A DNA stretch of 64,000 bases, taken from positions 1 to 64,000 of the forward strand of contig JAPPHB010000077.1 in assembly GCA_028821195.1 (NCBI GenBank), read 5' to 3'. Made by a program: the position numbers and the translations under genes. Positions 3,722 through 16,118 of the stretch are shown in pieces. Source of the stretch: Gammaproteobacteria bacterium. GTDB taxonomy: Bacteria > Gemmatimonadota > Gemmatimonadetes > Longimicrobiales > Gaopeijiaceae. Below the pieces are notes generated by a model that saw only the letters and a program-made list of their open reading frames with translations, had not been told where the DNA came from and ran no database searches. Numbering within the stretch: position 1 is the first letter of the stretch; every line of letters starts with the position of its first letter.

Positions 3722-4267
3722 ATGACTACGCTCAGAACCGATCGGCTGCTTCTGCGCCCGTTCGAACTCACGGACGTCGACGACGTCTACGCCTACGCGC
3801 GCGACTCCGAGTGGGGCCGGTATTTGCCTGTTCCCAGCCCCTACGAGTACAGGCACGCCGTCGAGTTCGTGGCGCGCTCCGTGCTTGCTCCGTGGGATAC
3901 CAGTCCCGTCTTCGCGATCTGCCTGAGCGGCAGGTGCGTCGGCGGTATCAACATCAGGGTCGACACGTCCGCGGGGACTGGCGAAATCGGATACAGCATC
4001 GCCCGCGCGCATTGGGGCAAGGGCCTCACAGCCGAGGCCGCGACAGCGGTCATGGACTGGGCGTTCAACGAGTTCGGGCTCGCCAAGATCACCGCGATGG
4101 CGGACCTCGCGAATTCCCGGTCCTCACGAGTGATGGAAAAGCTGGGGATGAGGCGGGACGGGCTGCTGAGAAGCGAGCGTCCAAGCGACGCCGATCCGGG
4201 AACCCGGCAGGACATGGTGGTCTACTCCGTCCTGCGCGGCGAGTGGCAGGCGCGCGCGGCGGGCTAG
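3722..4267 (+). CDS. GNAT family N-acetyltransferase (RimJ/RimL type)
   Basis: A 181-residue acetyltransferase. The opening pattern LRTDRLLLRPFELTD is characteristic of the RimJ/RimL branch. It is followed by an acetyl-CoA-binding region (Gly-Glu-Ile-Gly-Tyr strand, then RAHWGKGLTAEA) and the typical tail with Asn-x-x-Ser and LGMRRDG. The substrate, protein N-terminus or small amine, cannot be told from the sequence. It was probably convergent with the S9 peptidase gene before the element at 4333-14274 inserted between them. Confidence 0.88.
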   Translation: MTTLRTDRLLLRPFELTDVDDVYAYARDSEWGRYLPVPSPYEYRHAVEFVARSVLAPWDTSPVFAICLSGRCVGGINIRVDTSAGTGEIGYSIARAHWGKGLTAEAATAVMDWAFNEFGLAKITAMADLANSRSSRVMEKLGMRRDGLLRSERPSDADPGTRQDMVVYSVLRGEWQARAAG

Positions 4268-4289
4268 ACGGCCGGCCCCGCTACTGCAC

Positions 4290-4350
4290 CTATGGCCAGA
4301 GATCCACGCCGCCCTTCAGGTGTCGGTCCAGGAAGGCCAGCATCCTCGGC
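4290..4350 (-). pseudogene. Displaced 3' end of the S9 peptidase gene
   Basis: Read on the minus strand, these bases encode Pro-Arg-Met-Leu-Ala-Phe followed by LDRHLKGGVDLWP and a TAG stop. The intact S9 peptidase gene at 14214-16118 ends PRMLAF-LNRHVKGDVDLWP. Frame and codon phase are identical, and 10 of the 13 residues after the shared 18-bp core match. The simplest reading is that this is the original chromosomal end of the peptidase gene, cut off by integration of the element, which brought its own substitute end. Confidence 0.8.
4333..4350. repeat. attL core, 18-bp direct repeat
   Basis: AAGGCCAGCATCCTCGGC is present here and, without a mismatch, at 14257-14274. To its left is chromosomal sequence, the displaced end of the S9 peptidase gene. 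To its right the element begins with CGTGAC repeats and the integrase gene. On the minus strand the core encodes part of the PRMLAF segment of the peptidase. Confidence 0.8.
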
Positions 4351-4359
4351 GTGTCGCGT

Positions 4360-4385
4360 CGTGACACACCGTGACACACCGTGAC
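4360..4385. repeat. Three CGTGAC direct repeats with 10-bp period
   Basis: CGTGAC occurs at 4360, 4370 and 4380, exactly one helical turn apart. The first two copies are extended to CGTGACACAC. They lie 10 bp inside the attL core. Two more CGTGAC copies with the same 10-bp period are at 5651 and 5661. The position and helical phasing fit arm-type sites for the integrase or binding sites for the AlpA-like protein, but no protein can be assigned from sequence alone. Confidence 0.55.
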
Positions 4386-4417
4386 AATGCAGTGTTGATC
4401 GACATTTGCGCCGAACG

Positions 4418-4471
4418 TTGCGCGAGTGTAACGATCCCCCTACGATCCGTTATGTGGTAACGAGATCGTTC
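4418..4471 (+). promoter_or_regulatory. Putative integrase promoter with overlapping inverted repeats
   Basis: TTGCGC at 4418-4423 and TACGAT at 4441-4446 are separated by 17 bases, a fair sigma70-type match. Around and after the -10 are short inverted repeats: AACGATC at 4430 paired with GATCGTT at 4464, GTTA/TAAC at 4449-4461, and AACGA/TCGTT at 4460-4471. These could be an operator controlling integrase expression. The promoter match is moderate and no repressor gene is recognised in the element. Confidence 0.4.
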
Positions 4472-4493
4472 AAATGTGGCACAGGGGGGAGAC

Positions 4494-5672
4494 ATGAAGC
4501 GACCGGCGAGGCTGACAACGGGGTTCTGCCAGAAGGTGAAGGCCGCGGGATTCTACTCCGACGGTAGTCAGGGTTACGGGCTTCGGTTGAGGGTCGCGGC
4601 GGGCGGGAAGTCGTGGGTCCAGTCGTACCGCGGCGCGGACGGGAAGCAGCGGTCCCGGGGGCTGGGCGCGTTCCCTGACGTGAGCCTCGACATGGCGCGG
4701 TTCCTGGCCGTCACTGACGCGATCATCCGCAAGACGGGTGTCGATCCCCGTCACGGTGCCGAAGTCGCTCAGGAGCCCGTCCAGGCGCTCCCTGACGCGC
4801 CTTCCTTCGAGGATGCGGCGGAGCAGTTCATCACGCTCGCGCGCGCCGGCTGGAAGGCCGTCAAGGGCGGATCCGAAGACAAGTATCGGGCGACGGTCCA
4901 TGCGGTCGCGTTCCGAGGGAAGCCGGTCAACCAGATTACCCGCGAAGACGTTCGGGCGGAGATCGTCCCGATCTGGAGCACCAAGCGGACACTGGCGAGC
5001 ACGCGGCTCACCCACATCCGGCGCATTCTCGACTACTGCGACATCGAGCCCAACCCGGCCGCAGGGCTCCGGCGCAAGCTCCCGACGAACGGGAACGGAG
5101 TCGAGCATTTCGAGGCGATCCCGGTTGCGGAGATGCCCGCGGCCTTCCGGTCGCTGGACACCGATCACAAGCGCCCGCAGGCACGGCGGCACAACGCGCT
5201 CGTCATCCAGTTCGCCCTACTGACGGCTTCTCGCCCCGACATGGCGCTGGGCGCGCGCTGGAGCGAGATCGATGACGACCACGTTTGGACGGTCCCGGCG
5301 AAGCGGATGAAGGGCAAGCGCGATCATCGCATTCCGCTGTCGGGCGCGGCGCTGGCGGTGCTGGCCGAGGCGCGGAAGCTGACGCGCGGGCGCGGCCTGA
5401 TCTTCCCGGCGCGCAACGGCGGCAAGATCGACAAGGGCACCATCAACCGCGTCATGAAGCGCAACGGCGGCGGCACCGTCCACGGGAACGCCCGGTCCAC
5501 GTTCCGGGACTGGACAAGCGAAATGGACGCTTGCCGGCGCGAAGTCGCGGAGGCTGCGTTGGGCCATGTCGTGCCCGGCGTGGAAGGCGCATACGCCCGC
5601 AGCGACCTTCTGGAACGGCGTCGGCCCGTCATGGAGGCATATGGGCTTTACGTGACAGGACGTGACGGTTAG
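4494..5672 (+). CDS. Tyrosine recombinase, P4-type integrase
   Basis: Integrates and excises the element by site-specific recombination. The 392 residues contain an N-terminal DUF4102-like arm-binding domain (about 1-90), a SAM-like core-binding domain (about 100-195) and a catalytic domain. Catalytic residues are visible: Arg247 (TASRP), the His278 region (RDHRIPLS), His330 and Arg334 (HGNAR), His358 (LGHVV) and nucleophile Tyr367 (EGAYAR). The ATG at 4494 is preferred over a GTG at 4476 because GGGGGGA lies just upstream of it. The gene reads inward from attL, as in P4-like satellites and PICIs. The 3' end contains two CGTGAC repeats. Confidence 0.9.
   Translation: MKRPARLTTGFCQKVKAAGFYSDGSQGYGLRLRVAAGGKSWVQSYRGADGKQRSRGLGAFPDVSLDMARFLAVTDAIIRKTGVDPRHGAEVAQEPVQALPDAPSFEDAAEQFITLARAGWKAVKGGSEDKYRATVHAVAFRGKPVNQITREDVRAEIVPIWSTKRTLASTRLTHIRRILDYCDIEPNPAAGLRRKLPTNGNGVEHFEAIPVAEMPAAFRSLDTDHKRPQARRHNALVIQFALLTASRPDMALGARWSEIDDDHVWTVPAKRMKGKRDHRIPLSGAALAVLAEARKLTRGRGLIFPARNGGKIDKGTINRVMKRNGGGTVHGNARSTFRDWTSEMDACRREVAEAALGHVVPGVEGAYARSDLLERRRPVMEAYGLYVTGRDG
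5651..5666. repeat. Two CGTGAC repeats at the 3' end of the integrase gene
   Basis: CGTGAC at 5651-5656 and 5661-5666 repeats the motif found three times beside attL, again with a 10-bp period. The copies fall in the last codons of the integrase gene, upstream of the hairpins that precede the AlpA-like gene, so the same protein could bind both places. Confidence 0.45.
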
Positions 5673-5692
5673 GTTCCCGTCGTGCCGGGTTT

Positions 5693-5733
5693 CCCGGCCA
5701 ACCGAGCAAAGGGACGAGCAAAGGTTGGCCGGG
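5693..5733. repeat. Perfect 11-bp inverted repeat after the integrase gene
   Basis: CCCGGCCAACC at 5693-5703 pairs perfectly with GGTTGGCCGGG at 5723-5733 across a 19-base loop. The loop and start of the right arm contain a direct repeat GAGCAAAGG (5704 and 5716). No U-tract follows, so this looks more like an RNA structure or DNA operator than a simple terminator. Confidence 0.55.
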
Positions 5734-5744
5734 AGTTCGGACGG

Positions 5745-5784
5745 GCCGCCTCCCGGTTGGATCTCAACGGGAGGCGGCTTTCTC
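5745..5784 (+). promoter_or_regulatory. Hairpin burying the ribosome-binding site of the AlpA-like gene
   Basis: GCCGCCTCCCG at 5745-5755 pairs perfectly with CGGGAGGCGGC at 5768-5778 (11 bp, 12-base loop), followed by TTTCTC. The right arm contains GGGAGG, the only good Shine-Dalgarno sequence for the ATG at 5785. In the RNA the site would be closed, and the short pyrimidine tail could also act as a weak terminator. This would limit regulator synthesis when transcription reads through from the integrase gene. Confidence 0.55.
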
Positions 5785-6009
5785 ATGTCCCTACTCTCCT
5801 ACGCCGAAGTGAGTCGGCTGGTCGGACTCAGCACGCGCTCCATTCGCCGGCTGATCGACTCGGGTTCCTTTCCGCAACCGCTGGACTTGGGCGGGCGGGT
5901 TCGCAAGTTTCGCGCGGATGAAGTCGAAGCCTGGATCGATTCCCGCCCGCGGGCGTCTGTTCCGGAGCCTGTAGCACTCCAAAAGGCTCGCGCCCGGGCC
6001 GCGTCATGA
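5785..6009 (+). CDS. AlpA-like helix-turn-helix regulator / excisionase
   Basis: A 74-residue MerR/AlpA-fold DNA-binding protein. The pattern YAEVSRLVGLSTRSIRRLIDSG, then FPQP and a Phe-Arg-Ala-Asp-Glu-Val-Glu-Ala-Trp-Ile helix, is the classic winged HTH of AlpA/excisionase proteins. In P4-like satellites and PICIs, AlpA-type proteins act as excision or activation factors and sit beside the integrase, as here. The ATG at 5785 is preceded by GGGAGG; a longer frame back to 5662 lacks a ribosome-binding site and family similarity. The stop overlaps the next start (ATGA). Confidence 0.82.
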   Translation: MSLLSYAEVSRLVGLSTRSIRRLIDSGSFPQPLDLGGRVRKFRADEVEAWIDSRPRASVPEPVALQKARARAAS

Positions 6010-6701
6010 GCGGGCTGGCCGACCTGAAGCGGCATCCGCTCTCCGCGATCTGGGGCGACATGCCCGATCGCGAGTTCAGGGATCTCGTCGCCGACGTGGA
6101 GGAAGCCGGAATTCAGGAGCCCATCGTGCTCTACGAGGGCAAGGTGCTCGATGGCTGGCATCGGACGCGGGCCGCGATCGCGGCGGGACTATCGAGCGTC
6201 CCGGCAACAGAGTTCGATCCCGACCGGCATGGCGACCCCAAGCGTTTCGTCATGCGAAAGAACGGGCTCAGGCGGCACTTGAAGGCCGGCGAGCGCGCGC
6301 GCGCCGTCGTGGAGTTGTTTGAATGGCGTCCGCGCGGCAGGCCGTCGCTAAACGATTCAAATGAATCAGTTTCTGAATCGGAGATGGCGCAGGCGGTGAA
6401 TGTGAGCCGTTCGACGATCCAGCGGGCGAAGCGACAATCGCGAAAGGCGCGCGGTGAACCTGACGTCCGACCGCCGTCCAGAAAGGGCTACAAGACGAAG
6501 CAGGACAGGATCGAAGAGCTTGAGTTTCAACTCGACGGGAAGAAACACCGGATCGCCGAGCTTGAGGCCAAGTTGGGATCCGCCCTCTCTGACGCGTGCC
6601 CCGACGTAATGGCTGAGAATGATCGGCTCAGGGCCGAGAACCGGGAGTTATCGGATCAGGTCTTCCGTCTCAACCGGAAAGCGAAGGGCGGGGCAACCTG
6701 A
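6006..6701 (+). CDS. ParB-N-like DNA-binding protein with C-terminal coiled coil
   Basis: 231 residues. Residues 1-75 resemble the ParB/sulfiredoxin-like domain (HPLSAIW, then EPIVLYEGKVLDGWHRTRAA, matching the GxxRxxA box). About 85-155 form a helix-turn-helix region (MAQAVNVSRSTIQRAK). About 170-225 are a heptad-like coiled coil. Many phages and islands carry such proteins as regulators or replication and partition factors. The gene is coupled to the AlpA-like gene by a 4-base overlap, so both probably act in control. A role as initiator or small-terminase substitute is possible but not shown. Confidence 0.72.
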   Translation: MSGLADLKRHPLSAIWGDMPDREFRDLVADVEEAGIQEPIVLYEGKVLDGWHRTRAAIAAGLSSVPATEFDPDRHGDPKRFVMRKNGLRRHLKAGERARAVVELFEWRPRGRPSLNDSNESVSESEMAQAVNVSRSTIQRAKRQSRKARGEPDVRPPSRKGYKTKQDRIEELEFQLDGKKHRIAELEAKLGSALSDACPDVMAENDRLRAENRELSDQVFRLNRKAKGGAT

Positions 6702-6819
6702 AAATGGACATCGATCTCCCCCGCGTGTACGCGCGCGCGACGGTTGTTATTCACAACCATTCTTCCGGATGTAATTGTTCTTTCCAGCGTGCAATCAGGT
6801 AGGAGTTCACGCGATGAAA

Positions 6820-6886
6820 GGAAGATGTAGAGCAGGCTTCTCAGTCTCTCCCTTCACAACCAGATATTGCCTGCTCTGCATCTTCC
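6820..6886. repeat. 18-bp inverted repeat with 31-base loop
   Basis: Bases 6820-6837 pair with 6869-6886 at 17 of 18 positions, and the remaining pair is a permissible G-U in RNA. Two or three A-T pairs extend the stem beyond a single mismatch. There is no U-run after it, so it is not a standard terminator. It could be a structured small RNA, an origin stem-loop or a cos/pac recognition element upstream of terL. Confidence 0.6.
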
Positions 6887-7011
6887 GTTTGTGGGTTCCT
6901 GTCGCACGCAAGCGCGCGCGTGCAGGAGACCCCAACTTGCGCGCTCACAGTCGTTTCCCCCATCATGTTCGCGTGGCCCCCAAGCTGGAAACCTTGAGTG
7001 GGCTACAGAGC

Positions 7012-7059
7012 AAAGCCGCAGGTCCGAGCAATGAGTCCCGGGCCGCGGCTTTTCTTTTT
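7012..7059 (+). terminator. Rho-independent terminator upstream of the head operon
   Basis: AAAGCCGC (7012-7019) pairs with GCGGCTTT (7045-7052). Across one bulged A the stem continues with GGTCC/GGGCC (one G-U). A run TTTTCTTTTT follows. It ends the upstream transcript about 18 bases before the start of the next gene, so the head operon needs readthrough, antitermination or a promoter inside this region. Confidence 0.72.
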
Positions 7060-7076
7060 CCCGGAGGCATCACCAA

Positions 7077-7430
7077 ATGAGTCAGGAGACCATCAGACCC
7101 GAAGACGTGCGGCGCGCGATGCGCGGTGCGTACGAGGCCGGTTTCAAGGCCGCGACCGTGGCCGCAATCGTCGAGATCGGCGGGCTTCTCCAAAAGGTCC
7201 TGGGTTGGCCGGACCGACTCACCTTCCGAATGGCCATCGACGGCTCCAGCTTCCGGATCGCTGACCCGGAACAGGACGGACGCGAGTTCGCCGTCGATGT
7301 CCGCGCGCTGATGAAGGAGCCCGCGTATCGGGAACTCTACCGGATGCTCGTTGGTGGCGAAGGCGATCTCGTAACCGAGGTTCCGGATCCCTTTCGCTCG
7401 GAGTCGGCGCGGGGTGGCCTGGAGGCGTGA
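7077..7430 (+). CDS. Small acidic protein of unknown function, first gene of head operon
   Basis: 117 residues starting at an ATG with a good Shine-Dalgarno (CGGAGG at 7061-7066). The N-terminal half is predicted to be helical (EDVRRAMRGAYEAGFKAA); the C-terminal half is acidic and ends without a known motif. No family is recognised. Its place upstream of terL is where a small terminase normally lies, and its size fits, but no HTH is evident, so that role is only a guess. The stop abuts the next start. Confidence 0.6.
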   Translation: MSQETIRPEDVRRAMRGAYEAGFKAATVAAIVEIGGLLQKVLGWPDRLTFRMAIDGSSFRIADPEQDGREFAVDVRALMKEPAYRELYRMLVGGEGDLVTEVPDPFRSESARGGLEA

Positions 7431-7640
7431 ATGGCCGACATCCAAGACGCCCGGGTTTACGAAGGGTTCCTGCGCGACGTCGGTCGGATCGCGCCGAACG
7501 AGCCACCGGCGCGGCTTATCGTGTTGCCTTTGGGGGTCAACGTCTACGCGGGCGGTCGGAATCACACATGCAGCCCTGACGAGGCGCGGGCGCGCGGGCT
7601 GTGGCCACCTTTCCGGGCGGGCTGCTGGGGGGTTTACTGA
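7431..7640 (+). CDS. Small protein of unknown function
   Basis: 69 residues beginning directly after the preceding stop (TGA then ATG) and ending in TGATG shared with the next start, so it is probably translationally coupled on both sides. The N-terminal 15 residues look helical and acidic. A Cys near residue 47 and another near residue 65 are the only notable residues. No family is recognised. Confidence 0.5.
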   Translation: MADIQDARVYEGFLRDVGRIAPNEPPARLIVLPLGVNVYAGGRNHTCSPDEARARGLWPPFRAGCWGVY

Positions 7641-7816
7641 TGACCTTCGCTCGCATCCTGTTCGATCACTTCGATGGGTCGTGGCGACCCTTCCCCCGGC
7701 CGGCGTTCTGCTGGGCCGCATGGAGTCGAGGCGCGCGTCGATGGCACCGGGGCCAGTCCCGGCGTCTAGGGGGTGGGCTCGCAGGGGGTTCTCTTCCGTG
7801 TAAGGGTGCCCCGTGA
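7640..7816 (+). CDS. Very small basic protein of unknown function
   Basis: 58 residues. The ATG overlaps the previous stop (TGATG) and the TGA overlaps the GTG start of terL. It is Arg- and Trp-rich in the middle. It may be a real coupled gene or simply a spacer that lets ribosomes reach terL. Coding evidence is only the tight overlaps and codon phase, so confidence is low. Confidence 0.35.
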   Translation: MTFARILFDHFDGSWRPFPRPAFCWAAWSRGARRWHRGQSRRLGGGLAGGSLPCKGAP

Positions 7817-9252
7817 TCGAGCTTCGCCCGTTTCAGCGGACGTTCCTTCGGCGAGCCTTCGCGCCTGGGATCGACACCGTAGGGCTCTCATTGCCGCGGG
7901 GAAATGGCAAGTCAACTCTTTGCGCCTTCATCCTTGCGCGCTGCATGACGCCGGGCGATCCGCTGCACGTGCCGGGGGTCGAATATGTCCTGACGGCGGC
8001 GAGTCTGAATCAGGCTCGTTTCGTGTTTCGGCCTTTTCGGGCGGAACTGGAGCCGCGCGGGGGTTATCGGTTCTCCGATACGCAAACGCGCGTCGGCGCA
8101 CTTCATGAGGCGAGCGGAACGCGGCTCATGGTGCAGTCGAGCAAGGCGAAGACGGCGATGGGTCTGGTTCGTACCCCGCTGGTTGTCGCTGACGAGCCGG
8201 GAAGCTGGGAAGTGAAGGGCGGCGAGTTGATGTTCGACGCGCTGATGGAGGCGCAGGGCAAACCGGGCTCGCCTCTGCGGATCATCTTCGTGGGCACGGT
8301 CGCGCCGGCGACGGCGGGGTGGTGGCCGGACCTGATCGAGTCCGGATCGCACGGCTCCACCTATGTCATGGCGTACCAGGGCGACCCGGCGACGTGGGAC
8401 AAGTGGCCGACGATCCAGAAGGCGAACCCGCTGATGGCGCGCTTTCCCGCGAGCCGCGCGAAGCTGCTCCAGCGTCGGGACGAGGCTCGGCGGGACAGTC
8501 GTCTCAGGGCGAGGTTTCTGAGCTACAGGCTGAACGTTCCGTCGGAAGACGAGGCCAAGGTGCTGTTGACGGTCGAGGATTTCGAGAGGGTGTTGTCTCG
8601 GGACGTTGCTCCGCGCGACGGGCTGCCGGTGGTCGGCGTCGATCTCGGGGCGGGCCGTGCGTGGTCGAGCGCGGTCGCCGTTTTCGAGACTGGCCGGACC
8701 GAGGCGGTTGCCGTCGCTCCTGGGATCCCGTCGATCGCGGATCAGGAAGCGCGTGACCGGGTGCCGGCGGGCACGTATGCGAAGCTGCTCGCCAACGGGT
8801 CGCTCACCGTCGCGGACGGGCTCCGGGTGCCGCCTCCGTCGGCGCTCATGGAGCGGGTCTACGCTCAGTGGGGCCGGCCGGCGCTGATCGTCGCGGATCG
8901 GTTCCGGATCAACGAGCTTCGGGACTGTTCGCTCGGGGTCCCGCTGGAGCCGCGCGGCTCGGGTGCAACCCGGTGGTCGCATCCGTCGGACGATATCCGG
9001 GCGCTCAGGAAGGCGGCGATGGACGGGCCGTTGTCGATTCCGGAGGGGTCCCGGTTGCTGATGGCTGCGAGCCTGACGGCGGCGCGGGTGGTGAACGACA
9101 CGTCCGGCAACGTCCGGATGGTGAAGCGGGACCCATCGAACAACACCGGCAGAGATGACGTTTGCTCTGCCTGGGTGCTGGCTGCGGGCGCGGTGAAGCG
9201 GCACGGCTCGGGCGTTCCCCGTCGGGAGGTCGGGCGCTTTGCCATCGCGTAG
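7813..9252 (+). CDS. Phage terminase large subunit
   Basis: Packaging motor and DNA-cleaving enzyme, 479 residues. The N-terminal ATPase has a Walker A motif PRGNGKST (28-35) and a Walker B ending in Asp127-Glu128 (LVVADEP). The C-terminal RNase H-like nuclease has Asp277 (VVGVDLGAG), Asp362 (LIVADRF) and the Asp448-Asp449 pair (GRDDV) for metal binding. The GTG start overlaps the preceding small gene. No classical small terminase precedes it. Together with the HNH protein next door it matches HK97-type cos-packaging sets. Length is normal to slightly short for the family. Confidence 0.9.
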   Translation: MIELRPFQRTFLRRAFAPGIDTVGLSLPRGNGKSTLCAFILARCMTPGDPLHVPGVEYVLTAASLNQARFVFRPFRAELEPRGGYRFSDTQTRVGALHEASGTRLMVQSSKAKTAMGLVRTPLVVADEPGSWEVKGGELMFDALMEAQGKPGSPLRIIFVGTVAPATAGWWPDLIESGSHGSTYVMAYQGDPATWDKWPTIQKANPLMARFPASRAKLLQRRDEARRDSRLRARFLSYRLNVPSEDEAKVLLTVEDFERVLSRDVAPRDGLPVVGVDLGAGRAWSSAVAVFETGRTEAVAVAPGIPSIADQEARDRVPAGTYAKLLANGSLTVADGLRVPPPSALMERVYAQWGRPALIVADRFRINELRDCSLGVPLEPRGSGATRWSHPSDDIRALRKAAMDGPLSIPEGSRLLMAASLTAARVVNDTSGNVRMVKRDPSNNTGRDDVCSAWVLAAGAVKRHGSGVPRREVGRFAIA

Positions 9253-9514
9253 GCTGCGGGGCGCGGCGTGGCGTCGGCTCCGGCGTCGGGTGCTGGATCG
9301 CGACGGGTGGCAGTGCGTGATCTGCTCTTCCCCGTATCCGCTGGAAGTGGATCACCGGGTTCCGGTCGAGCGGGGCGGCGGGCATGAAATGCGGAATCTC
9401 CAGACGCTTTGTCGGGGGTGTCACATACGGAAGACGCGGCGCGAGAACATGGCGCGCCACACGGGGCCGCGCCGGGACGCGTGGCGAACCTATCTCAAGG
9501 AGTTGGTGGCATGA
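9239..9514 (+). CDS. HNH endonuclease
   Basis: 91 residues with a strongly basic N-terminus, a Cys-x-x-Cys pair, the EVDHRVP box, a downstream Asn and CRGCHIRKT, which together make a complete HNH zinc-finger nuclease. In HK97-like phages such a protein beside terL is needed for specific cleavage at cos. The start is a TTG at 9239 inside the terL 3' end; this fits the usual N-terminal length, though a later start cannot be excluded. The stop overlaps the capsid gene start (ATGA). Confidence 0.85.
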   Translation: MPSRRLRGAAWRRLRRRVLDRDGWQCVICSSPYPLEVDHRVPVERGGGHEMRNLQTLCRGCHIRKTRRENMARHTGPRRDAWRTYLKELVA

Positions 9515-10761
9515 CGAACCTTCAGAAGTTGCGCGTTCGCGCTTCCGAGATTCGGAGCAAGCTGAACGAGCTTTCCGGGGTCGAGGATCTGAGCGACGAA
9601 CAGCGGTCCGAGATGGACGCGCTGAGCAAGGAGTATCAGGACGTGGAGCGCCGTTCGCGGGCCGCGATCATCGCGGAAGGCGAGGATGACGAGGGCAGGA
9701 CCACGCCCGCAGAGCCGGATGCCGAGATGCGGGAGCGGGTCGAGCTTCGGGGCAAGGCGTCGCTGACGAACTACCTGCTCGCGGCGGCGCGCGGGCGGCT
9801 CCCGGACGGTGCGGAGGCGGAGCTTGCCGAAGCTGCGGGCGTCGAAGGAATCCCGCTCGAGCTGTGGGACGTGCCGGCGGAAGCGGAGGAACGGGCCATC
9901 ACGCCCGCGCCGGGCACCGTGGGTGTGAACCTGGATCCGATCCGGCCAGCCGTGTTCGCGCCGTCGATCGCGCCCCGGCTTGGTGTCGAGATGCCGCGCG
10001 TTGCTTCCGGAACGTTCGCATCGGGCACGATCACCACGTCGGTGACGGCCGGGCCGCGCGCCAAGAGTGCAAACGCACCGCAGACTGAAGGAGCGATCAC
10101 CGTGACGACGGCGACTCCGAAGCGGGTCGCGGCGTCGGTCGCTTTCGCCATCGAGGACATCAAGGCGGTCGGACAGGCCAATTTCGAGTCGATCCTGCGC
10201 GAGAACATGAGCATGGCGCTCAGTGCCGAACTCGACAATCAGGTACTCAACGGAGATGGCCAGAACAACGCGCTCACGGGGCTGTTCCAGCGGCTCGCGG
10301 ATCCGGCCGCGCCGGGGGCGACCGTCACGGACTTCGACGACTTCGTGTCCGCGTTCGCCGGCGGCGTCGATGGTCTGTGGGCCAGCCGAATGAACGAGGT
10401 GGCGATCGTCGTGGGCGTGGACACCTATCGGGTCGCGGCACAGGCGTTCCGGGACGCGACGGGGCAGGATCTCGGCGATATCTCCTTCGCCGACTATGCG
10501 ATGGACAAGTTCGGGGGCTTCTGGACGAACAGCCGGATGCCGGCGGCGGCGGCGAATGTCCAGCAGGCGGTTCTGTACCGGACTGGCCGTTCGGGGATGC
10601 GGACGGCGGTCTGCCCGCACTGGGGCGAGATCGGGATCGACGACATCTACAGCGGCAGCCTCAAGGGCGAGCGTCAGTACACGATGCACGTCCTGCTCGG
10701 TGACGTGATCGTGGTCCAGTCGGCTGCCTATGCTCAGGTGAACTTCCGGACCGCGGTCTGA
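9511..10761 (+). CDS. HK97-family major capsid protein
   Basis: 416 residues. Residues 1-60 form a charged coiled-coil delta domain of the kind removed by the prohead protease. The rest follows the HK97 fold, with segments typical of this family (IEDIKAVGQANFESIL, then LNGDGQNNALTGLF, and a C-terminal DVIVVQSAAYAQ). The ATG at 9511 is preferred because AAGGAG precedes it and it overlaps the HNH stop; the frame extends upstream but only as noise. The capsid gene comes before the protease and portal genes, the reverse of the common order. Confidence 0.88.
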   Translation: MTNLQKLRVRASEIRSKLNELSGVEDLSDEQRSEMDALSKEYQDVERRSRAAIIAEGEDDEGRTTPAEPDAEMRERVELRGKASLTNYLLAAARGRLPDGAEAELAEAAGVEGIPLELWDVPAEAEERAITPAPGTVGVNLDPIRPAVFAPSIAPRLGVEMPRVASGTFASGTITTSVTAGPRAKSANAPQTEGAITVTTATPKRVAASVAFAIEDIKAVGQANFESILRENMSMALSAELDNQVLNGDGQNNALTGLFQRLADPAAPGATVTDFDDFVSAFAGGVDGLWASRMNEVAIVVGVDTYRVAAQAFRDATGQDLGDISFADYAMDKFGGFWTNSRMPAAAANVQQAVLYRTGRSGMRTAVCPHWGEIGIDDIYSGSLKGERQYTMHVLLGDVIVVQSAAYAQVNFRTAV

Positions 10762-11693
10762 TGGATCGCATTTTCACGGGCGAGTGCCGGGCAGAGGGTC
10801 GAACCCTGTCCGGTACCGTCCTGACGTTCGGCGAGATCTCGCCGTCCCATCGGGAGCGGTTCCTCCCCGGATCCCTCCAGCGCGAGGGGGACGTGTGGCT
10901 GGACGTGGACCACGATCAGCGGGCCGTGGTGTGCTGGGAGGGGTCCGGGCTCGCGTTCACGGAGACGGCGGGCGCGCTCACGATGCGAGCGGAGATCCCG
11001 CGCACCGTGCCGGGCGACATGGCGCTGGAGGGTGTGCGCGACGGAACCCGGGCCGGTCTGAGCATCGAGTTCTCGGCACTGTCGGAGCGGAAGGAAGCCC
11101 AGACCGGGATCCGTGTCTTGGAGCGGGCGCGGTTGCATGGCGTCGGGCTCGTTGCGGCACCGTCGTATCCCGGTTCCCGCGTGGAGGCTCGCCAGCGGAC
11201 CGGGCCGGGGATTTCGGGGCTCGTTGGGCTGGGTGAGGACTTGGCGTGTCGGTGCCGCGGTCCGGACTGCGATTCGGTCCGGTTTGCGGTGGACGCCTTC
11301 GATGATGCGCTGGCCGAAGCCGAAGCCGGGGACCGGATCATCACCATCTTCCTGAATGGCGCGTTCGCGACCCCGTTCGGGCGCGTTGGTGCCGGTCTGA
11401 CGGTCCGGCGCGTCGGCTCCGCGCTCCGGGTCGATCTGGACGCGCTGCCCGAATCCGCAGCGGCCGCGGAGTTCCTGGAATCGGTGCGCTCCGGGACGGC
11501 GTACACGGTCCGGCCGTACACGCCGGAATCGACATCCGAGTTCGTGAAGCGGGACCGGGTGGCGGTGTTCTCGCGGGCGGATCTCAGGGCGATCGAGGTT
11601 GCGCCCCTGTCCGGGCCGGTCTACGGGCTCCGCGAGATCGAGGTTGATGGCGAGACGCGCCGGAGATCGGCGAGGAGGCGAGTGTGGCTGTAA
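10761..11693 (+). CDS. Prohead protease with a second, degenerate protease-like half
   Basis: 310 residues. The N-terminal half (1-145) is an HK97-type prohead protease: His51 in DVDHDQ and Ser101 in GLSIEFS are the expected catalytic residues, with VGLVAAPSYPGSRV closing the domain. The C-terminal half (about 170-300) again shows the family pattern (LRVDLDALP, EFLESVRSGT, RADLRAIEVAPL) but has no matching His/Ser pair. It is probably a tandem duplication whose second copy is structural. It overlaps the capsid stop (TGATG) and the connector start. Confidence 0.8.
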   Translation: MDRIFTGECRAEGRTLSGTVLTFGEISPSHRERFLPGSLQREGDVWLDVDHDQRAVVCWEGSGLAFTETAGALTMRAEIPRTVPGDMALEGVRDGTRAGLSIEFSALSERKEAQTGIRVLERARLHGVGLVAAPSYPGSRVEARQRTGPGISGLVGLGEDLACRCRGPDCDSVRFAVDAFDDALAEAEAGDRIITIFLNGAFATPFGRVGAGLTVRRVGSALRVDLDALPESAAAAEFLESVRSGTAYTVRPYTPESTSEFVKRDRVAVFSRADLRAIEVAPLSGPVYGLREIEVDGETRRRSARRRVWL

Positions 11694-11986
11694 CGACGGA
11701 GGACGCTGCCCGTTGGCTGGGCGGCGGTCAGGATCTCACCGCGCCGGGTGCGAGTCAGCAAATGGTGGCGCTGATCGAGACGGCGGATGAAATGGTCGAT
11801 GACTACGCATCGGGCGCTCCGGCGACGATCCGGGATCACGCCGTCCGGATGCTGGTGGGGTACCTGTACAACGATCGCGGCTACGCGGAACGGCGTCCGC
11901 GGTGGGGTGCGAATGCGATGCGGAACAGCGGCGCGGCATCGTTGCTCGCGCCGTACCGGGTCGCTCAGGCGCTGGTGGCCGGATGA
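11684..11986 (+). CDS. Head-tail connector, gp6-like
   Basis: 100 residues, mostly helical, with the tail RNSGAASLLAPYRV typical of gp6-like (HK97 gp6/SPP1 gp15 type) adaptor proteins that dock below the portal. The GTG at 11684 has GAGGAGG upstream and overlaps the protease gene end. The stop overlaps the portal start. A connector implies the heads are built to receive a tail even though no tail genes are present. Confidence 0.78.
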   Translation: MAVTTEDAARWLGGGQDLTAPGASQQMVALIETADEMVDDYASGAPATIRDHAVRMLVGYLYNDRGYAERRPRWGANAMRNSGAASLLAPYRVAQALVAG

Positions 11987-13032
11987 GGTGGCCGTGGCAG
12001 GGACGCGAGAAGCGTTCGAGCGGGGGCAGCTTCACGGACGCCGTGATCCGGCTGATCGAGGCGGAAGCGGCCGGGACGTCTACCGACTCCTCCTCCACGG
12101 CCGCGGTAGAGGCCGCCAGCGGCGCGCTGAGCCGTGCGCTCGCGTCCGCGCGGGTGTCAGGGCCTCCGCACGTAATCCGCGCCGTCTCAGCGGGCTTTCT
12201 CGCGCAAACGGGACGCGACCTGATCCGGTCCGGCCAGTCGATGCACGTGATCCGGGTTTCCCGGGCCGGGCGGGTGCGGCTGCTTCCGGCGGCGTCGTGG
12301 CATTTCGAGGGGGACGCGGATCCATCCACGTGGCGGGTGCGGGCGACGGTCTACGGGTCATCCTCCAGCACCACGTACCGGCTGCCCCTGTCGGGCGTCG
12401 TATTCGCTGCCTGGGGCGCGACACCGGGCCAGCCCTATACGGGCGTCGGGCCGTTGCGCTGGGCGTCCACCACGGGCCGGATGCTGGCCGAGGCGGAGAA
12501 GCACATCGGCGACGAATCCGCCGGGCCGCGCGGCAACCTGCTTCCGGTGCCGGCCGCTGATGACGACAAGCTGGCGAAGCTCAAGGCGGCTGTGGCGGCG
12601 CTCAAGGGCCGCGCCCTGCTCACGGAAACCACGTCCACGGGCTTCGGGCTCGGGGCGCAGGAGGCACCGCGTCAGGACTTCGTAGCGCGCCGTCTCGGGG
12701 GCAGCGTCGATCAGAACATGATGCTCGCGAGGCGGGACGGGTTCGCCGAAGTGCTGGCCGCGACGGGAACGCCTCCGTCGCTGTTCACGGACGCCGACGG
12801 AACCGCCCAGCGGGAAGCCTTTCGACGCTACCTGACGATGACGGTACAGCCCATCGCGCGGGTGCTGGAGCAAGAGCTATCCGAGAAGCTGGAGACGTCC
12901 GTGTCGCTCGGTTTCGAGGATCTCTACGCCCATGACTTGGTGGGCCGCGCGTCCAGTTTCCAGAAGCTCGTTGCGGCCGGGGTGCCGGTCGCGGACGCGC
13001 TCAACACTTCGGGATTGATGGCCGATGGCTGA
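11983..13032 (+). CDS. Phage portal protein
   Basis: 349 residues, family PF04860-like: the SPLRWAS-type segment reads GVGPLRWASTT, followed by a long helix-rich wing and clip region and a C-terminal REAFRRYLTMTVQPIARVLEQEL stretch typical of HK97 portals. The ATG at 11983 overlaps the connector stop (ATGA). At about 350 residues it is a compact portal. It lies last in the head operon, whereas portals usually follow terL directly. Confidence 0.82.
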   Translation: MRWPWQGREKRSSGGSFTDAVIRLIEAEAAGTSTDSSSTAAVEAASGALSRALASARVSGPPHVIRAVSAGFLAQTGRDLIRSGQSMHVIRVSRAGRVRLLPAASWHFEGDADPSTWRVRATVYGSSSSTTYRLPLSGVVFAAWGATPGQPYTGVGPLRWASTTGRMLAEAEKHIGDESAGPRGNLLPVPAADDDKLAKLKAAVAALKGRALLTETTSTGFGLGAQEAPRQDFVARRLGGSVDQNMMLARRDGFAEVLAATGTPPSLFTDADGTAQREAFRRYLTMTVQPIARVLEQELSEKLETSVSLGFEDLYAHDLVGRASSFQKLVAAGVPVADALNTSGLMADG

Positions 13033-13219
13033 TGAGAACGCGGTAGACGTGCGGACGGCTCCGGAGCTTCAGGACTCCGAACGCGCGGACGCTATCCTTC
13101 CCGTGGCCGGCCGACTCGGGGAAGGACCGAAGCGACTGCCCCTGTCGAACGTCATGACGGGCGCGGAGATCGTCGCGAAGCTGGACGCGTACTTCGGCGG
13201 GACGGACTGGCGCACGTGA
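13025..13219 (+). CDS. Small protein of unknown function after the portal gene
   Basis: 64 residues whose ATG overlaps the portal 3' end. Residues 40-64 (MTGAEIVAKLDAYFGGTDWRT) recall a short repeat seen near the start of some phage tail-fibre-like proteins, where Asp-Trp-Arg is conserved. Here that segment stands alone without a fibre. It may be a remnant of, or a minimal version of, a head-completion or adhesion protein. The stop overlaps the next GTG. Confidence 0.5.
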   Translation: MADENAVDVRTAPELQDSERADAILPVAGRLGEGPKRLPLSNVMTGAEIVAKLDAYFGGTDWRT

Positions 13220-13428
13220 CGGGCCGGACGCTTCCGCCCCGGACGTGCAGGATTCCCGGCTGCGGGGGCAGGCACAACGCGCGCGGTTACTGCGGGAAGC
13301 ATTACCGGCGCTGGGAGCGATACGGCGATCCCCGGATCGTGCATCGACGGGGAACGCCCGCGCGACCGGAGACGCGGATCGGGGTGAGGATCAGGTACGG
13401 ATCCGGACGCCGCGCTCCAGCCGAATGA
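13216..13428 (+). CDS. Small zinc-finger-like protein
   Basis: 70 residues from a GTG coupled to the preceding stop. The first half has a Cys-x4-Cys ... Cys-x2-His arrangement (CRIPGC, then GYCGKHYRRW) like the zinc knuckle found at the start of many phage HNH homing nucleases. No HNH active site follows, so it is either a truncated nuclease or a stand-alone DNA-binding finger. The basic C-terminus would suit nucleic-acid binding. Its end overlaps a convergent gene by 38 bases. Confidence 0.5.
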   Translation: MTGRTLPPRTCRIPGCGGRHNARGYCGKHYRRWERYGDPRIVHRRGTPARPETRIGVRIRYGSGRRAPAE

Positions 13429-13663
13429 ACTCCAGTTCGAGCGCATCGTGCTCGAATTCAACGAGCGCGATCGGGGGGAGATCGAGGTCCGCGAGCGGGA
13501 TCGCGGGCACGGGATAGAGCTCGTCGGACACCCTCACGGTGAAGGCTTCGCCGTTGACCTTCACGGAGATCGTCCGTTCCTCCGGGCCGAACGCGAGTTC
13601 TCCGCGCTCGACTCTCTCTTGGAGCAAGTCCACGACGTGACGGCGGGTGATGGGCTCCCTCAT
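13391..13663 (-). CDS. Small acidic protein of unknown function, last gene of the reverse cassette
   Basis: 90 residues on the minus strand, coupled to the upstream 99-residue gene by an ATGA overlap. It starts with a helical region, then alternating strand-like segments (TISVKVNGEAFTVRVSDELY), and is acidic. No family is recognised. It is part of a three-gene set that opposes the head operon at the right end of the element. Confidence 0.6.
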   Translation of the reverse strand: MREPITRRHVVDLLQERVERGELAFGPEERTISVKVNGEAFTVRVSDELYPVPAIPLADLDLPPIALVEFEHDALELEFIRLERGVRIRT

Positions 13664-13959
13664 TGGGCGGGGCTCCAGATTACGCCCCCGACGTCGGTCC
13701 TGGGCACGTCAAGCAGCTTCGCAAAGAGATCGTCGTCCATCCCCTCGTGATAGGTGGTGTGGCGCATGCCGGCAGCGCGCAGGTGGGCGGCGAAATCGTC
13801 GAAAAACGTCTTGTCCACGTTGATGTAAAAGGTGCCGTTCAAGACCAGTCCCAGCACAACCCTCTCCGCGTCGTGCAGCAGTACCTTGTCCGCATCATCA
13901 AAGGCGGCGAACCCGGTAGCGATGAAGAAACGGGTGTCGGGGTTCGTGGGATCGGTCAT
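13660..13959 (-). CDS. Protein of unknown function, middle gene of the reverse cassette
   Basis: 99 residues from an ATG at 13959 whose first bases overlap the stop of a 29-residue ORF. The sequence mixes aromatic residues and acidic patches (FDDADKVLLHDAE, then INVDKTFFDDFAAHLR) and ends VGGVIWSPAQ, suggesting a small alpha/beta fold. A longer frame upstream is Arg/Pro-rich and not protein-like. No family is recognised. In satellites, genes at this location often serve superinfection immunity or interfere with the helper phage; here that is only a contextual guess. Confidence 0.6.
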   Translation of the reverse strand: MTDPTNPDTRFFIATGFAAFDDADKVLLHDAERVVLGLVLNGTFYINVDKTFFDDFAAHLRAAGMRHTTYHEGMDDDLFAKLLDVPRTDVGGVIWSPAQ

Positions 13960-14045
13960 TGCTTCGGAGGGTTCTGGCCGGGCTTCTCGCCTCCGCCGGT
14001 CTTCGTGGGCGGAACGTTGCGTCCAGGGTGCTTCTTGTCGGTCAT
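13956..14045 (-). CDS. 29-residue basic peptide, first gene of the reverse cassette
   Basis: A short frame with GGAGA seven bases upstream of its ATG (14045) and a stop overlapping the start of the 99-residue gene. The product is Lys-, Gly- and Pro-rich (MTDKKHPGRN ... QNPPKQ) and likely disordered. It lies 52 bases downstream of a good promoter. It may be a true small protein or a leader peptide controlling the downstream gene. Confidence 0.42.
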   Translation of the reverse strand: MTDKKHPGRNVPPTKTGGGEKPGQNPPKQ

Positions 14046-14096
14046 CGGTTGGTCTCCGGCGTTGCGTTGGCGGTGGCGGTCGATCTTGGCGGAGAG

Positions 14097-14125
14097 ACGT
14101 TATCACCCTGATCGCGGCCCGTCAA
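14097..14125 (-). promoter_or_regulatory. Sigma70-type promoter for the reverse cassette
   Basis: On the minus strand TTGACG (14125-14120) and TAACGT (14102-14097) are 17 bases apart, a close match to the -35/-10 consensus. It points toward the three small genes at 13391-14045. Having its own promoter, the cassette could be expressed while the rest of the element is silent. Confidence 0.6.
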
Positions 14126-14213
14126 ACGTGGTAATCGTCCGAGATCCGTCCCCAAGTTTCTCCTAGGGCGCGCTGGGGATAGTGCTTGGTAACCCGTTGG
14201 TATTGCTGCACTT

Positions 14214-16118
14214 TTACGGCCAGAGATCCACGTCCCCCTTCACGTGGCGATTTAAAAAGGCCAGCATCCTCGGCATCCACTCGAGCCGCGCGGCGCGGCC
14301 CGCAACCTCCACGTACCGTTCGTAGGTGACCGGCTTGTAGTAGCGGGCGGCCTCCGTGGCAAACGCGCGCATCTGCACGTCGCCGTCGCCGGCGATGATC
14401 AGCATTGGCATCCCCACATCCTGCGCGAACAGCGTGGGGGACGCCCGCCGGAAGGTCTCGCGGTTCTCCGCCAGCAGGCCGAGCTCGTACTGGTACATGT
14501 TGATGTTGGCCAGAGCCGACTCGCTCTCGACCAGTTGAATGCGGTTGGCGTATCCCTCCCGCAGGGGCACGGCGGCCCGGAACGCGTCCGGGGCGAAGGT
14601 GCTCGCGGCAAAGCTCAGATAGGCTCCGTAGCTCACGCCCGTGACCGCGACCCGGTCGCCGTCGATATCGGGCAATGTGCCGAGATACCCCGCGCCCGCC
14701 ACGACATCATCCAGATCACACCGCGCCCAGCACCCGTTGTTCGCCTCCTCGTGCTCCCAGCCGAAGCCTGAGCTCCCCCGGATGTTGGGGGCCAGCACCG
14801 CATAGCCGTGCTTGATGAAGTAGTGGGCGTCGGCGTGTCGCCTCCAGCCATCCTCGAACTGCGAGGAGGGCCCCCCGTGGACCCAGACGATGGCGGGATA
14901 CCCCCCGGGCGGCGGCGGCTCGGCAGGCCGGAACAGGTAGGAGTGGATGGTGAGCCCGTCGTTCTCGTAGCTCACCCGTTCGGGCATGAAGAAGGCGTCG
15001 GCAAGCGCCGGATCCGGCAACGAGTGCGTCAGGCGCGCCGGCTCGCCTCCGGCCGCATCCATCACGAACAGATCCGGGACCTGCGCCGGCGTGTCGAAGG
15101 TGAAGGCGATGCGGCGGCCGTCCGGGGACCACGCCGGGTTCGCCACGAGGCCTATCTCCGGAGCGAAGAGGGTCTGGACCGTGCCGTCGTCCACCGAGGC
15201 AACCCGCAGAATCTGCCGGCCCCTCAGGTTGGACGTGTACGCGACCCTCGTGCCGTCGGGAGACCAGCGGGCGTAGCCCCGGAAGGGCTTCTGGGAGCTC
15301 TGATCGGCTGCTTCGGGCGCGAGCGGACGGGGCTCTCCGCCCTCCATCGGCGCGAGCCACCAGTTGATCCAGCCGCTGCGGTAGGAGCGGAACAGCACCA
15401 GGTCGCCTCTCGGCGAGACCTGGCCAGGCCCGAACTCCTGGCCGGTGCGATAGTCCATCCAGTCGCGGTCGCTCACGATTAGACGCTCGCCGGCGCCGGT
15501 GGCGGCGTCTATGGAGATGACGTCGTGGTGGATCCACCACTGGTCCATGCGCACGAACACGATCCTGGAACCGTCCGGCGTCCAGGTGGGCTGCACGTCG
15601 TAGCGGGTGTCGGTGGTGAGCCGCTTCACCTGTCCCTCCGGCACCGACACCGTGTAGATGTCGTAGTTGCCGCGCAGCGAGTTGGAGAAGACGATGTGCC
15701 CTCCGTCGGGGGACCAGCTCCAGGAAAGCGTGCGGGCACCGAGGTCGGTCAACTGGAGCGCGCGCTGCTTGGGGATGGACCAGAGCCAGAGCTCCCGCCC
15801 GTCGCCGGATGCGCTTGACACGTAGCCGATCCACGCGCCGTCCGGGGAGTACGCCGGGCTGGTGACTCCCTCCACCGGGATCGCCTCGGGATCGGCACCG
15901 TCGGCGTCGACGGTCCACAGCGTGTCGCGCCCGAGGAAGAGGATCGCAGAACCGTCGGGGGACCAATCGGGCACGGCTCCGTCCACGAGGGAGCTCGTGG
16001 ACACGAACTCCTCGAGGGTGAAGTCGCCGGGGGTGCGGGTGGACGCTGGCGTGCCGCTGGTTTCGGCGCAGGCCGCGCTGGCGAGAGCAACGAGGAATGC
16101 CAACACCGCTCGCTTCAT
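14214..16118 (-). CDS. S9 family prolyl oligopeptidase-like lipoprotein, C-terminus supplied by the element
   Basis: 634 residues: lipoprotein signal with lipobox ending Ser-Ala-Ala-Cys, a TolB-like beta-propeller (about 40-380, many WSPDG repeats) and an alpha/beta-hydrolase domain (about 400-634). The nucleophile motif GVSYG and the acid Asp (AGDGDVQ) are present. The segment that normally holds the catalytic His (GEGHG type) reads EVAGRAARLEW, so the His seems to be lost and activity is doubtful. Translation starts at 16118 after AAGGAGG. The last 13 codons lie outside the att core and derive from the inserted element. Confidence 0.85.
   Translation of the reverse strand: MKRAVLAFLVALASAACAETSGTPASTRTPGDFTLEEFVSTSSLVDGAVPDWSPDGSAILFLGRDTLWTVDADGADPEAIPVEGVTSPAYSPDGAWIGYVSSASGDGRELWLWSIPKQRALQLTDLGARTLSWSWSPDGGHIVFSNSLRGNYDIYTVSVPEGQVKRLTTDTRYDVQPTWTPDGSRIVFVRMDQWWIHHDVISIDAATGAGERLIVSDRDWMDYRTGQEFGPGQVSPRGDLVLFRSYRSGWINWWLAPMEGGEPRPLAPEAADQSSQKPFRGYARWSPDGTRVAYTSNLRGRQILRVASVDDGTVQTLFAPEIGLVANPAWSPDGRRIAFTFDTPAQVPDLFVMDAAGGEPARLTHSLPDPALADAFFMPERVSYENDGLTIHSYLFRPAEPPPPGGYPAIVWVHGGPSSQFEDGWRRHADAHYFIKHGYAVLAPNIRGSSGFGWEHEEANNGCWARCDLDDVVAGAGYLGTLPDIDGDRVAVTGVSYGAYLSFAASTFAPDAFRAAVPLREGYANRIQLVESESALANINMYQYELGLLAENRETFRRASPTLFAQDVGMPMLIIAGDGDVQMRAFATEAARYYKPVTYERYVEVAGRAARLEWMPRMLAFLNRHVKGDVDLWP
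14257..14274. repeat. attR core, 18-bp direct repeat
   Basis: Identical to the core at 4333-4350. Here chromosomal DNA, the body of the S9 peptidase gene, lies to the right, and element DNA coding the last 13 residues of the peptidase lies to the left. The recoded end contains a TTTAAA run unlike the surrounding GC-rich gene, as expected for foreign sequence. Confidence 0.8.

Follow-up and report, generated by a model that had tools for sequence, protein, structure and literature searches.

Capsid-forming phage-inducible chromosomal islands (cf-PICIs), reportedly the subject of Alqurainy et al. 2023, are the described satellites closest in plan to a 9.9-kb element that we have analyzed in a Gemmatimonadota draft genome (assembly GCA_028821195.1, contig JAPPHB010000077.1, positions 1 to 64,000; "the window" means this whole stretch of 64,000 nucleotides). 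In the published excerpts, cf-PICIs encode capsid, protease, portal, connectors, both terminase subunits and an HNH endonuclease, take only tails and are widely distributed across Bacteria (PMC10690885); they average 14 kb and the host groups named are mostly Enterobacteriaceae and Firmicutes (PMC10803314; see also, in excerpt, PMC11389934). We propose that the element is probably an integrated and apparently intact capsid-forming phage satellite of a mosaic lineage, cf-PICI-like and borrowing siphovirus tails, and the lineage is best read as undescribed. Like a cf-PICI, it has an integrase, its own capsid, protease, portal, connector, large terminase subunit (TerL) and HNH endonuclease, and no tail gene was recognized; the AlpA-type regulator and the site-specific integration with an own integrase expected of a cf-PICI were also found. 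It differs by the absence of an identified small terminase (TerS), by its size against the 14-kb average and by a host outside the groups named in the excerpt of PMC10803314, and also in that, among its relatives, some circular contigs have a Rep-type gene but lack a recognized integrase. Since no TerS was found, helper dependence is inferred and the likeness is one of gene content and published description, we have not filed the element as a cf-PICI.

Several other systems share parts of this plan. The Streptomyces satellites MulchRoom and MiniFlayer also have small genomes with TerL, portal, capsid and head-tail adaptor genes, and the tail of MulchRoom is thought to be helper-derived (PMC10690885, in excerpt), but they differ by the order TerS-TerL-portal-scaffold-capsid-adaptor and by long terminal repeats; when both genomes (OQ784832, OQ357865) were compared with ten models of the element family, only the integrase model gave a match at E<=1, in MulchRoom, TerL, portal and capsid being unmatched. 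The HK97-like siphophage PG1 of Pseudomonas has the same TerL family (3.4e-38 with the family model), an HK97-type capsid, a protease, a portal and a gp6-like connector, whereas its genome is 37.2 kb, with TerS and HNH ahead of terL and the portal ahead of the capsid. No tblastn match to the TerL, portal or capsid of the window was found in 50,697 phage records. The PLE, P4, classical PICI and PICMI elements are likewise small and integrated, with integrase and regulators, but according to excerpts of PMC10803314 and PMC10690885 they appropriate or reshape the capsids of a helper, or have no capsid genes, whereas this element encodes its own capsid. Charybdis elements differ too, being 4.6 kb and without such hallmark genes in the excerpt of PMC12324425. 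Our literature search, which covered few subscription papers, found no paper on phage satellites in Gemmatimonadota.

The features of the element are as follows (HTH, helix-turn-helix; ORF, open reading frame).
4291..4350 (-): attL region, native S9-peptidase 3' end, now displaced (exact core 4333-4350; repeat and empty-site alignment)
4350..4386 (no strand): three tandem repeats with 10-bp spacing just inside attL (sequence inspection)
4476..5672 (+): tyrosine integrase with Arm-DNA-bind_3 domain (PF13356 4.7e-11, PF00589 1.5e-8, phrog_1 2.3e-36)
5785..6009 (+): AlpA/excisionase-type HTH regulator (PF05930 2.8e-7 and TIGR01764, both above cut-off)
6006..6701 (+): ParB-like N-terminal domain with HTH and coiled coil (phrog_4715 7.1e-15; relative in G003 1.1e-34)
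6702..7076 (no strand): AT-richer intergenic region, inverted repeat with 21-nt arms 6817-6837/6869-6889 (sequence inspection)
7077..7430 (+): 117-aa ORF upstream of terL, no family (TerS by position only)
7431..7640 (+): 69-aa ORF, no assigned function
7813..9252 (+): TerL (phrog_9 8.6e-39; clear match in PHROGs only)
9239..9514 (+): HNH endonuclease (PF01844 4.7e-12, above the Pfam cut-off)
9511..10761 (+): HK97-type major capsid protein (PF05065 5.1e-9 and TIGR01554, both above cut-off)
10761..11693 (+): prohead serine protease (PF04586 2.7e-12 above cut-off; TIGR01543 5e-13 below cut-off)
11684..11986 (+): head-tail connector with HK97 gp6-like fold (fold match; profile weak)
11983..13032 (+): portal protein (PF04860 2.5e-10, 40.5 against a cut-off of 39.1 bits; TIGR01537 7.6e-6 below cut-off)
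13025..13219 (+): 64-aa ORF, no assigned function
13216..13428 (+): 70-aa ORF with a match to the N-terminal portion of an HNH-endonuclease family (phrog_5351 5.7e-10)
13391..13663 (-): accessory ORF, no assigned function
13660..14046 (-): accessory ORF, no assigned function, with a 4-bp overlap with the preceding one
14215..14274 (-): attR region, the element-borne S9-peptidase 3' end (core 14257-14274; 59/60 to G009 and G010)

An earlier note on this DNA, made from the letters alone, had described a 9.9-kb block between exact 18-bp repeats with an integrase, an AlpA-like gene and a complete set of head genes, no tail or lysis gene and no broken gene, on the plan of known cf-PICIs which build heads and take tails. 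Both repeats are exact where it had placed them. A profile search of the ORFs, which it had proposed, supports the integrase and AlpA, both above their Pfam cut-offs, as well as TerL, HNH, capsid, protease and portal, while the connector is supported by its fold: the best PHROG match is weak (E 0.037) and the predicted fold matches HK97 gp6 and phage necks. The set of head genes is complete for head building (capsid, protease, connector, portal) but not demonstrably so for packaging, as no small terminase was identified; the genes it had named are confirmed, and it had omitted the ParB-like gene at 6006-6701 and several small ORFs. Every named gene is an open frame, and no tail or lysis family was matched by the 18 element ORF references scanned, so the two modules of a tailed temperate phage were not found in the element. 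The plan attributed to cf-PICIs agrees with published descriptions (PMC10690885, in excerpt), the element being likened to them by gene content.

The 117-aa ORF at 7077..7430 was tried as TerS and not retained: it has the position, no profile match, and an AF2 model which is uninformative (pLDDT 49.5). The inverted repeat at 6817-6889, in the AT-richer gap before terL, is a possible origin or packaging site, and the tandem repeats inside attL are candidate integrase arm sites or AlpA sites. In G003, a relative of the ParB-like protein is encoded two genes upstream of terL (1.1e-34). Rfam gave nothing up to E 1 within 4200-14400.

The element proper occupies positions 4351-14274 and has entered the 3' end of the S9-peptidase gene (14214-16118, minus strand). 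The 18-bp direct repeats (4333-4350 and 14257-14274) are nested in a longer 60-bp repeat of 83% identity (4291-4350/14215-14274), both copies of which are the 3' end of this gene. Because the element supplies the last codons itself, the peptidase stays intact at 634 aa, and the displaced native copy still reads ...PRMLAFLDRHLKGGVDLWP. The left flank was found in all ten other genomes of the genus; in nine of them the flanks, joined in silico, align uninterrupted, which is the empty site that the earlier note had suggested looking for. The tenth, G004, is the exception: its left flank stops within the peptidase end and continues into the hydrolase gene that is elsewhere the downstream neighbor of the peptidase. 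No close copy of the peptidase gene was found in this 67%-complete genome, and the stretch matches no head-gene or integrase model, so that the element is absent from there too. On that contig (G004:C126, L030), the integration-site peptidase gene is gone and just the last few bases of its end are left.

The element-borne 60 bp are identical at 59 of 60 positions to the sister species G009 and G010 and at 50 of 60 to the displaced native copy. This gene end being closer to the sister species than to the native copy, a transfer between species is suggested, and the simplest reading of the match would make a G009/G010-like genome the source of the element. As to the host, the eight named records with the same host locus are labeled Gemmatimonadetes (four), BD2-11 clade (one) and Gammaproteobacteria (three); the last label, borne by the metagenome-assembled genome records L013, L016 and L017, is probably wrong, since they share the locus with the Gemmatimonadetes and BD2-11 records. 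Judging by sample names, some of the named genomes may derive from sponges.

Relatives of the element are confined to one bacterial family among the Gemmatimonadota genomes searched. TerL found nine of 395 phylum genomes at E<=1e-20, the own genome included; a portal profile found 11 of 395 phylum-wide at E<=1e-10, belonging to three of 138 genera, and, at E<=1e-8, 12 of the 121 in the bacterial family, a count that includes the own genome and remnants. Genes in the relatives were called with our own caller, based on GC content at third codon positions, so that small ORFs and starts are approximate, and the caller performs poorly on L101 and L104, which are richer in AT. The window, G103, G397 and G004 each have the full set of six genes, arranged as terL, HNH, capsid, protease, connector, portal; the order is retained in G179 and G395 (no called connector) and in G203 (no called HNH). 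G158 begins inside terL, and G003 is split across two contigs. In G062 the contig begins close to the capsid gene, and terL and HNH come after the portal. The G397 element measures 10.66 kb and is bounded by a 17-bp repeat at the 3' end of tRNA-SeC; the G103 element, of about 10.0 kb, has an imperfect 15/16 repeat beside its integrase and extra neck and tail-terminator proteins, and the search for its empty site gave no clear site. G179 has AT-rich bounding repeats matching at 16 of 17 positions and no recognized integrase, while G004 and G395 carry primase or replicase genes. Two differently arranged elements adjoin the same host genes in G203 and G062 (L036, L037), which suggests that these genomes share an integration hot spot.

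A decaying prophage, that is a siphovirus lysogen whose tail, lysis and replication genes were deleted, would also look tail-less, and decayed copies do exist in the family: the portal has two stops in G238, is a fragment in G000:C65 and lies within a longer frame in G027. Such copies are what a mobile family would be expected to show. In the window, however, both element ends are intact and all named genes are open, where a remnant would show broken genes or a missing end, and the same tail-less plan recurs in separately integrated relatives and in circular-ended contigs. We consider this origin very unlikely. The fragment G000:C65 (L060:2625-3101), a second portal of the family, sits on one of the short contigs of the own genome, near what looks like the end of a cytochrome P450 gene.

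Selection also argues against decay. In G397 and G003, the sole close pair, some of whose compared genes are partial in G003, the ratio of nonsynonymous to synonymous substitution rates (dN/dS) is 0.15 for the portal, 0.17 for the connector, 0.15 for terL and 0.16 for the capsid. Four of five head genes are thus under purifying selection in the pair tested; more distant pairs gave 0.31-0.45. The nearest relative of the window changes with the gene: G103 for TerL (50%), G179 for the protease (57%), G397, G003 and G395 for the capsid (65-67% for G397/G003) and G397/G003 for the portal (62-63%). This comparison leaves out the TerL of G062 and G395, which are 31% and 32% identical to that of the window. 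We read the lineage as diverse and mosaic, with a conserved order of head genes and a variable complement of genes for replication and accessory functions.

The G397 element ends with a trypsin-like serine protease (L034:15775-16530), the single match in a PADLOC scan of ten proteins, four of them from the window (PDC-M35A 3.2e-10, RT-Protease_XI, LmuA); these weak matches make it a possible defense cargo.

The family extends to uncultivated viral contigs. Five family scans of IMG/VR gave 41 distinct contigs (L071-L111) of 4.1-17.3 kb; the TerL of the window as lone query retrieved nothing there, and alignments of closer relatives did retrieve contigs. Among the 22 closer contigs (L071-L086, L100-L105), 18 keep the head-gene order for three or more of the six genes, L084 and L103 being counted as circular permutations. 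A distant group (L089-L099, 26-29% by capsid) has the capsid ahead of protease, portal and HNH, wherever the caller found these; terL comes after HNH in four of 11 contigs, and an integrase was called in six of 11. The contigs have a median length of 8.6 kb and none exceeds 17.3 kb, which also speaks against a decaying prophage. A siphophage TerL used as control had 124 relatives, of which 80 were kept, with a median contig of 30.1 kb and 59 longer than 17,278 bp; this control is one protein with close matches, and the comparison is indicative only. Because the head-gene order recurs in the genomes and in these 18 contigs, no contig exceeds 17.3 kb, four have circular ends and purifying selection is seen, a lone deletion remnant is unlikely.

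The four contigs with identical ends are L072 (9,391 bp as a circle), L086 (10,095), L085 (13,577) and L105 (10,093); their end overlaps of 99 (L072), 55 (L085), 99 (L086) and 127 bp (L105) may have arisen in assembly and not be genuine terminal repeats. L072 and L086, apparently circular at 9.4 and 10.1 kb, combine a gene related to the G395 replicase with the head module and have no recognized integrase. L085 (13,632 bp, IMG/VR 2617270816) holds a helicase-like Rep, the head module and genes read as a Tn3-type transposase and resolvase, and is possibly a head-gene plasmid; its capsid has no match in a plasmid collection and 16 phage records align with its TerL, with identities of about 24%. 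The L078 portal has no match in the phage records.

Another reading is an autonomous miniature phage, whose released head would infect without a helper by means of a minimal tail or an adhesin that escaped detection. Circular genomes that resemble tailed phages, are 7.3-8.5 kb long and include capsid genes have been predicted (PMC7762592, in excerpt), and in L086 a protein of 764 aa opens with a match to the connector, its remaining ~650 aa having no PHROG match. In the window, however, the gaps between assigned genes fit only ORFs of at most about 170 aa, and no lysis family was matched. Connector, neck and tail-terminator proteins join head to tail in known phages, and the gp6-like connector here, with the neck and tail-terminator proteins of relatives, are such joining parts. 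We therefore regard helper-free infection as unlikely.

Tail-type genes were also sought across the family. The 120 non-head ORFs (114 from relatives, six from the window), scanned against PHROGs at E<=1e-4, matched 62 families; among the 25 listed are integrases, replication proteins and neck/adaptor proteins. Single-protein scans gave proteins of the neck, adaptor, head-closure and terminator types, one tape-measure-like protein and a single weak match to a minor tail protein, and no tail or lysis module was seen in the relatives scanned. Neck and adaptor proteins aside, the tail-type genes are the tape-measure-like ORF of G179 and the tail terminator of G103. The former is compatible with a satellite, since putative tmp genes are reported in PLE-like elements and some cf-PICIs, a further likeness to the latter, and PLE11 builds its own tape measure into chimeric tails (PMC12987554, in excerpt). 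The earlier note had named tail or lysis genes adjacent in relatives, which would make this copy a remnant, or random gene loss among relatives as speaking against its reading. No such module was seen, the head module lying in small elements with integrase or Rep genes; as for gene loss, some decayed copies exist, against which stand the conserved head order and the selection measured in one pair.

It had also called for a helper prophage, and none was found in the own genome with the three families tried: PF04860 gave no other portal at E<=0.001 (the C65 fragment is visible with the family model only), and PF10145 and PF13550 gave zero matches. Nor can a helper be named, since the G179 tape-measure-like protein has no IMG/VR relative and the G103 terminator no relative in phage records. 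The missing prophage would suit a domesticated head module serving the host, as a gene-transfer-agent-like particle or a protein cage. A mobile element is indicated instead by the integrase, AlpA and the att repeats, by the patchy occurrence with empty sites, and by a gene end belonging to another species, and to our knowledge known gene transfer agents make their own tails; domestication thus appears extremely improbable. Provided that the draft is sufficiently complete, an infecting phage is a likelier helper than a resident prophage.

A number of observations weigh against a tail-borrowing satellite. No helper, excision reads or particles stand behind the lifestyle that we infer, and the absence of a helper from the own genome, a draft of 140 contigs with 5.89% contamination, is weak evidence. 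Small terminase has no profile match among the element ORFs (Pfam, PHROGs), and no replication gene was found by profile in the window apart from the ParB-like one. The tape-measure-like protein of G179 (phrog_2276 1.1e-7, 539 aa, L035:16056-17675) lies one small gene past the portal, and the other 37 of the 62 PHROG families may conceivably include weaker tail matches. The protease of G397 and G003 is only 30% identical, with a dN/dS of 0.86, a divergence that we read as gene replacement. Finally, 19 of the 41 family contigs are distant or short relatives, and the length control and the family scans used different kinds of query.

The capsid-forming satellite remains our preferred explanation, and its life cycle would run as follows. 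On entry or induction of a tailed siphovirus, the element would excise and replicate; its own TerL and HNH would package its DNA into a small self-encoded head, the connector would dock tails made by the helper, and the particles would exit through the lysis of the latter. Tentatively, we further picture an old and independent capsid-forming satellite lineage, limited to one bacterial family among the searched Gemmatimonadota genomes, which would swap head genes freely between elements and might exist in two states, as integrase islands and as integrase-less plasmid-like circles (hardly more than a Rep-type gene plus a phage head) spreading only on borrowed tails.

The same head-only strategy is now placed in a little-cultured phylum, with head proteins unmatched in the phage collection searched, which points to tail theft as a way of life that head-only elements have adopted repeatedly. 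The lineage provides a marker set for finding helpers, and the element-borne peptidase end offers a traceable case of transfer between species.

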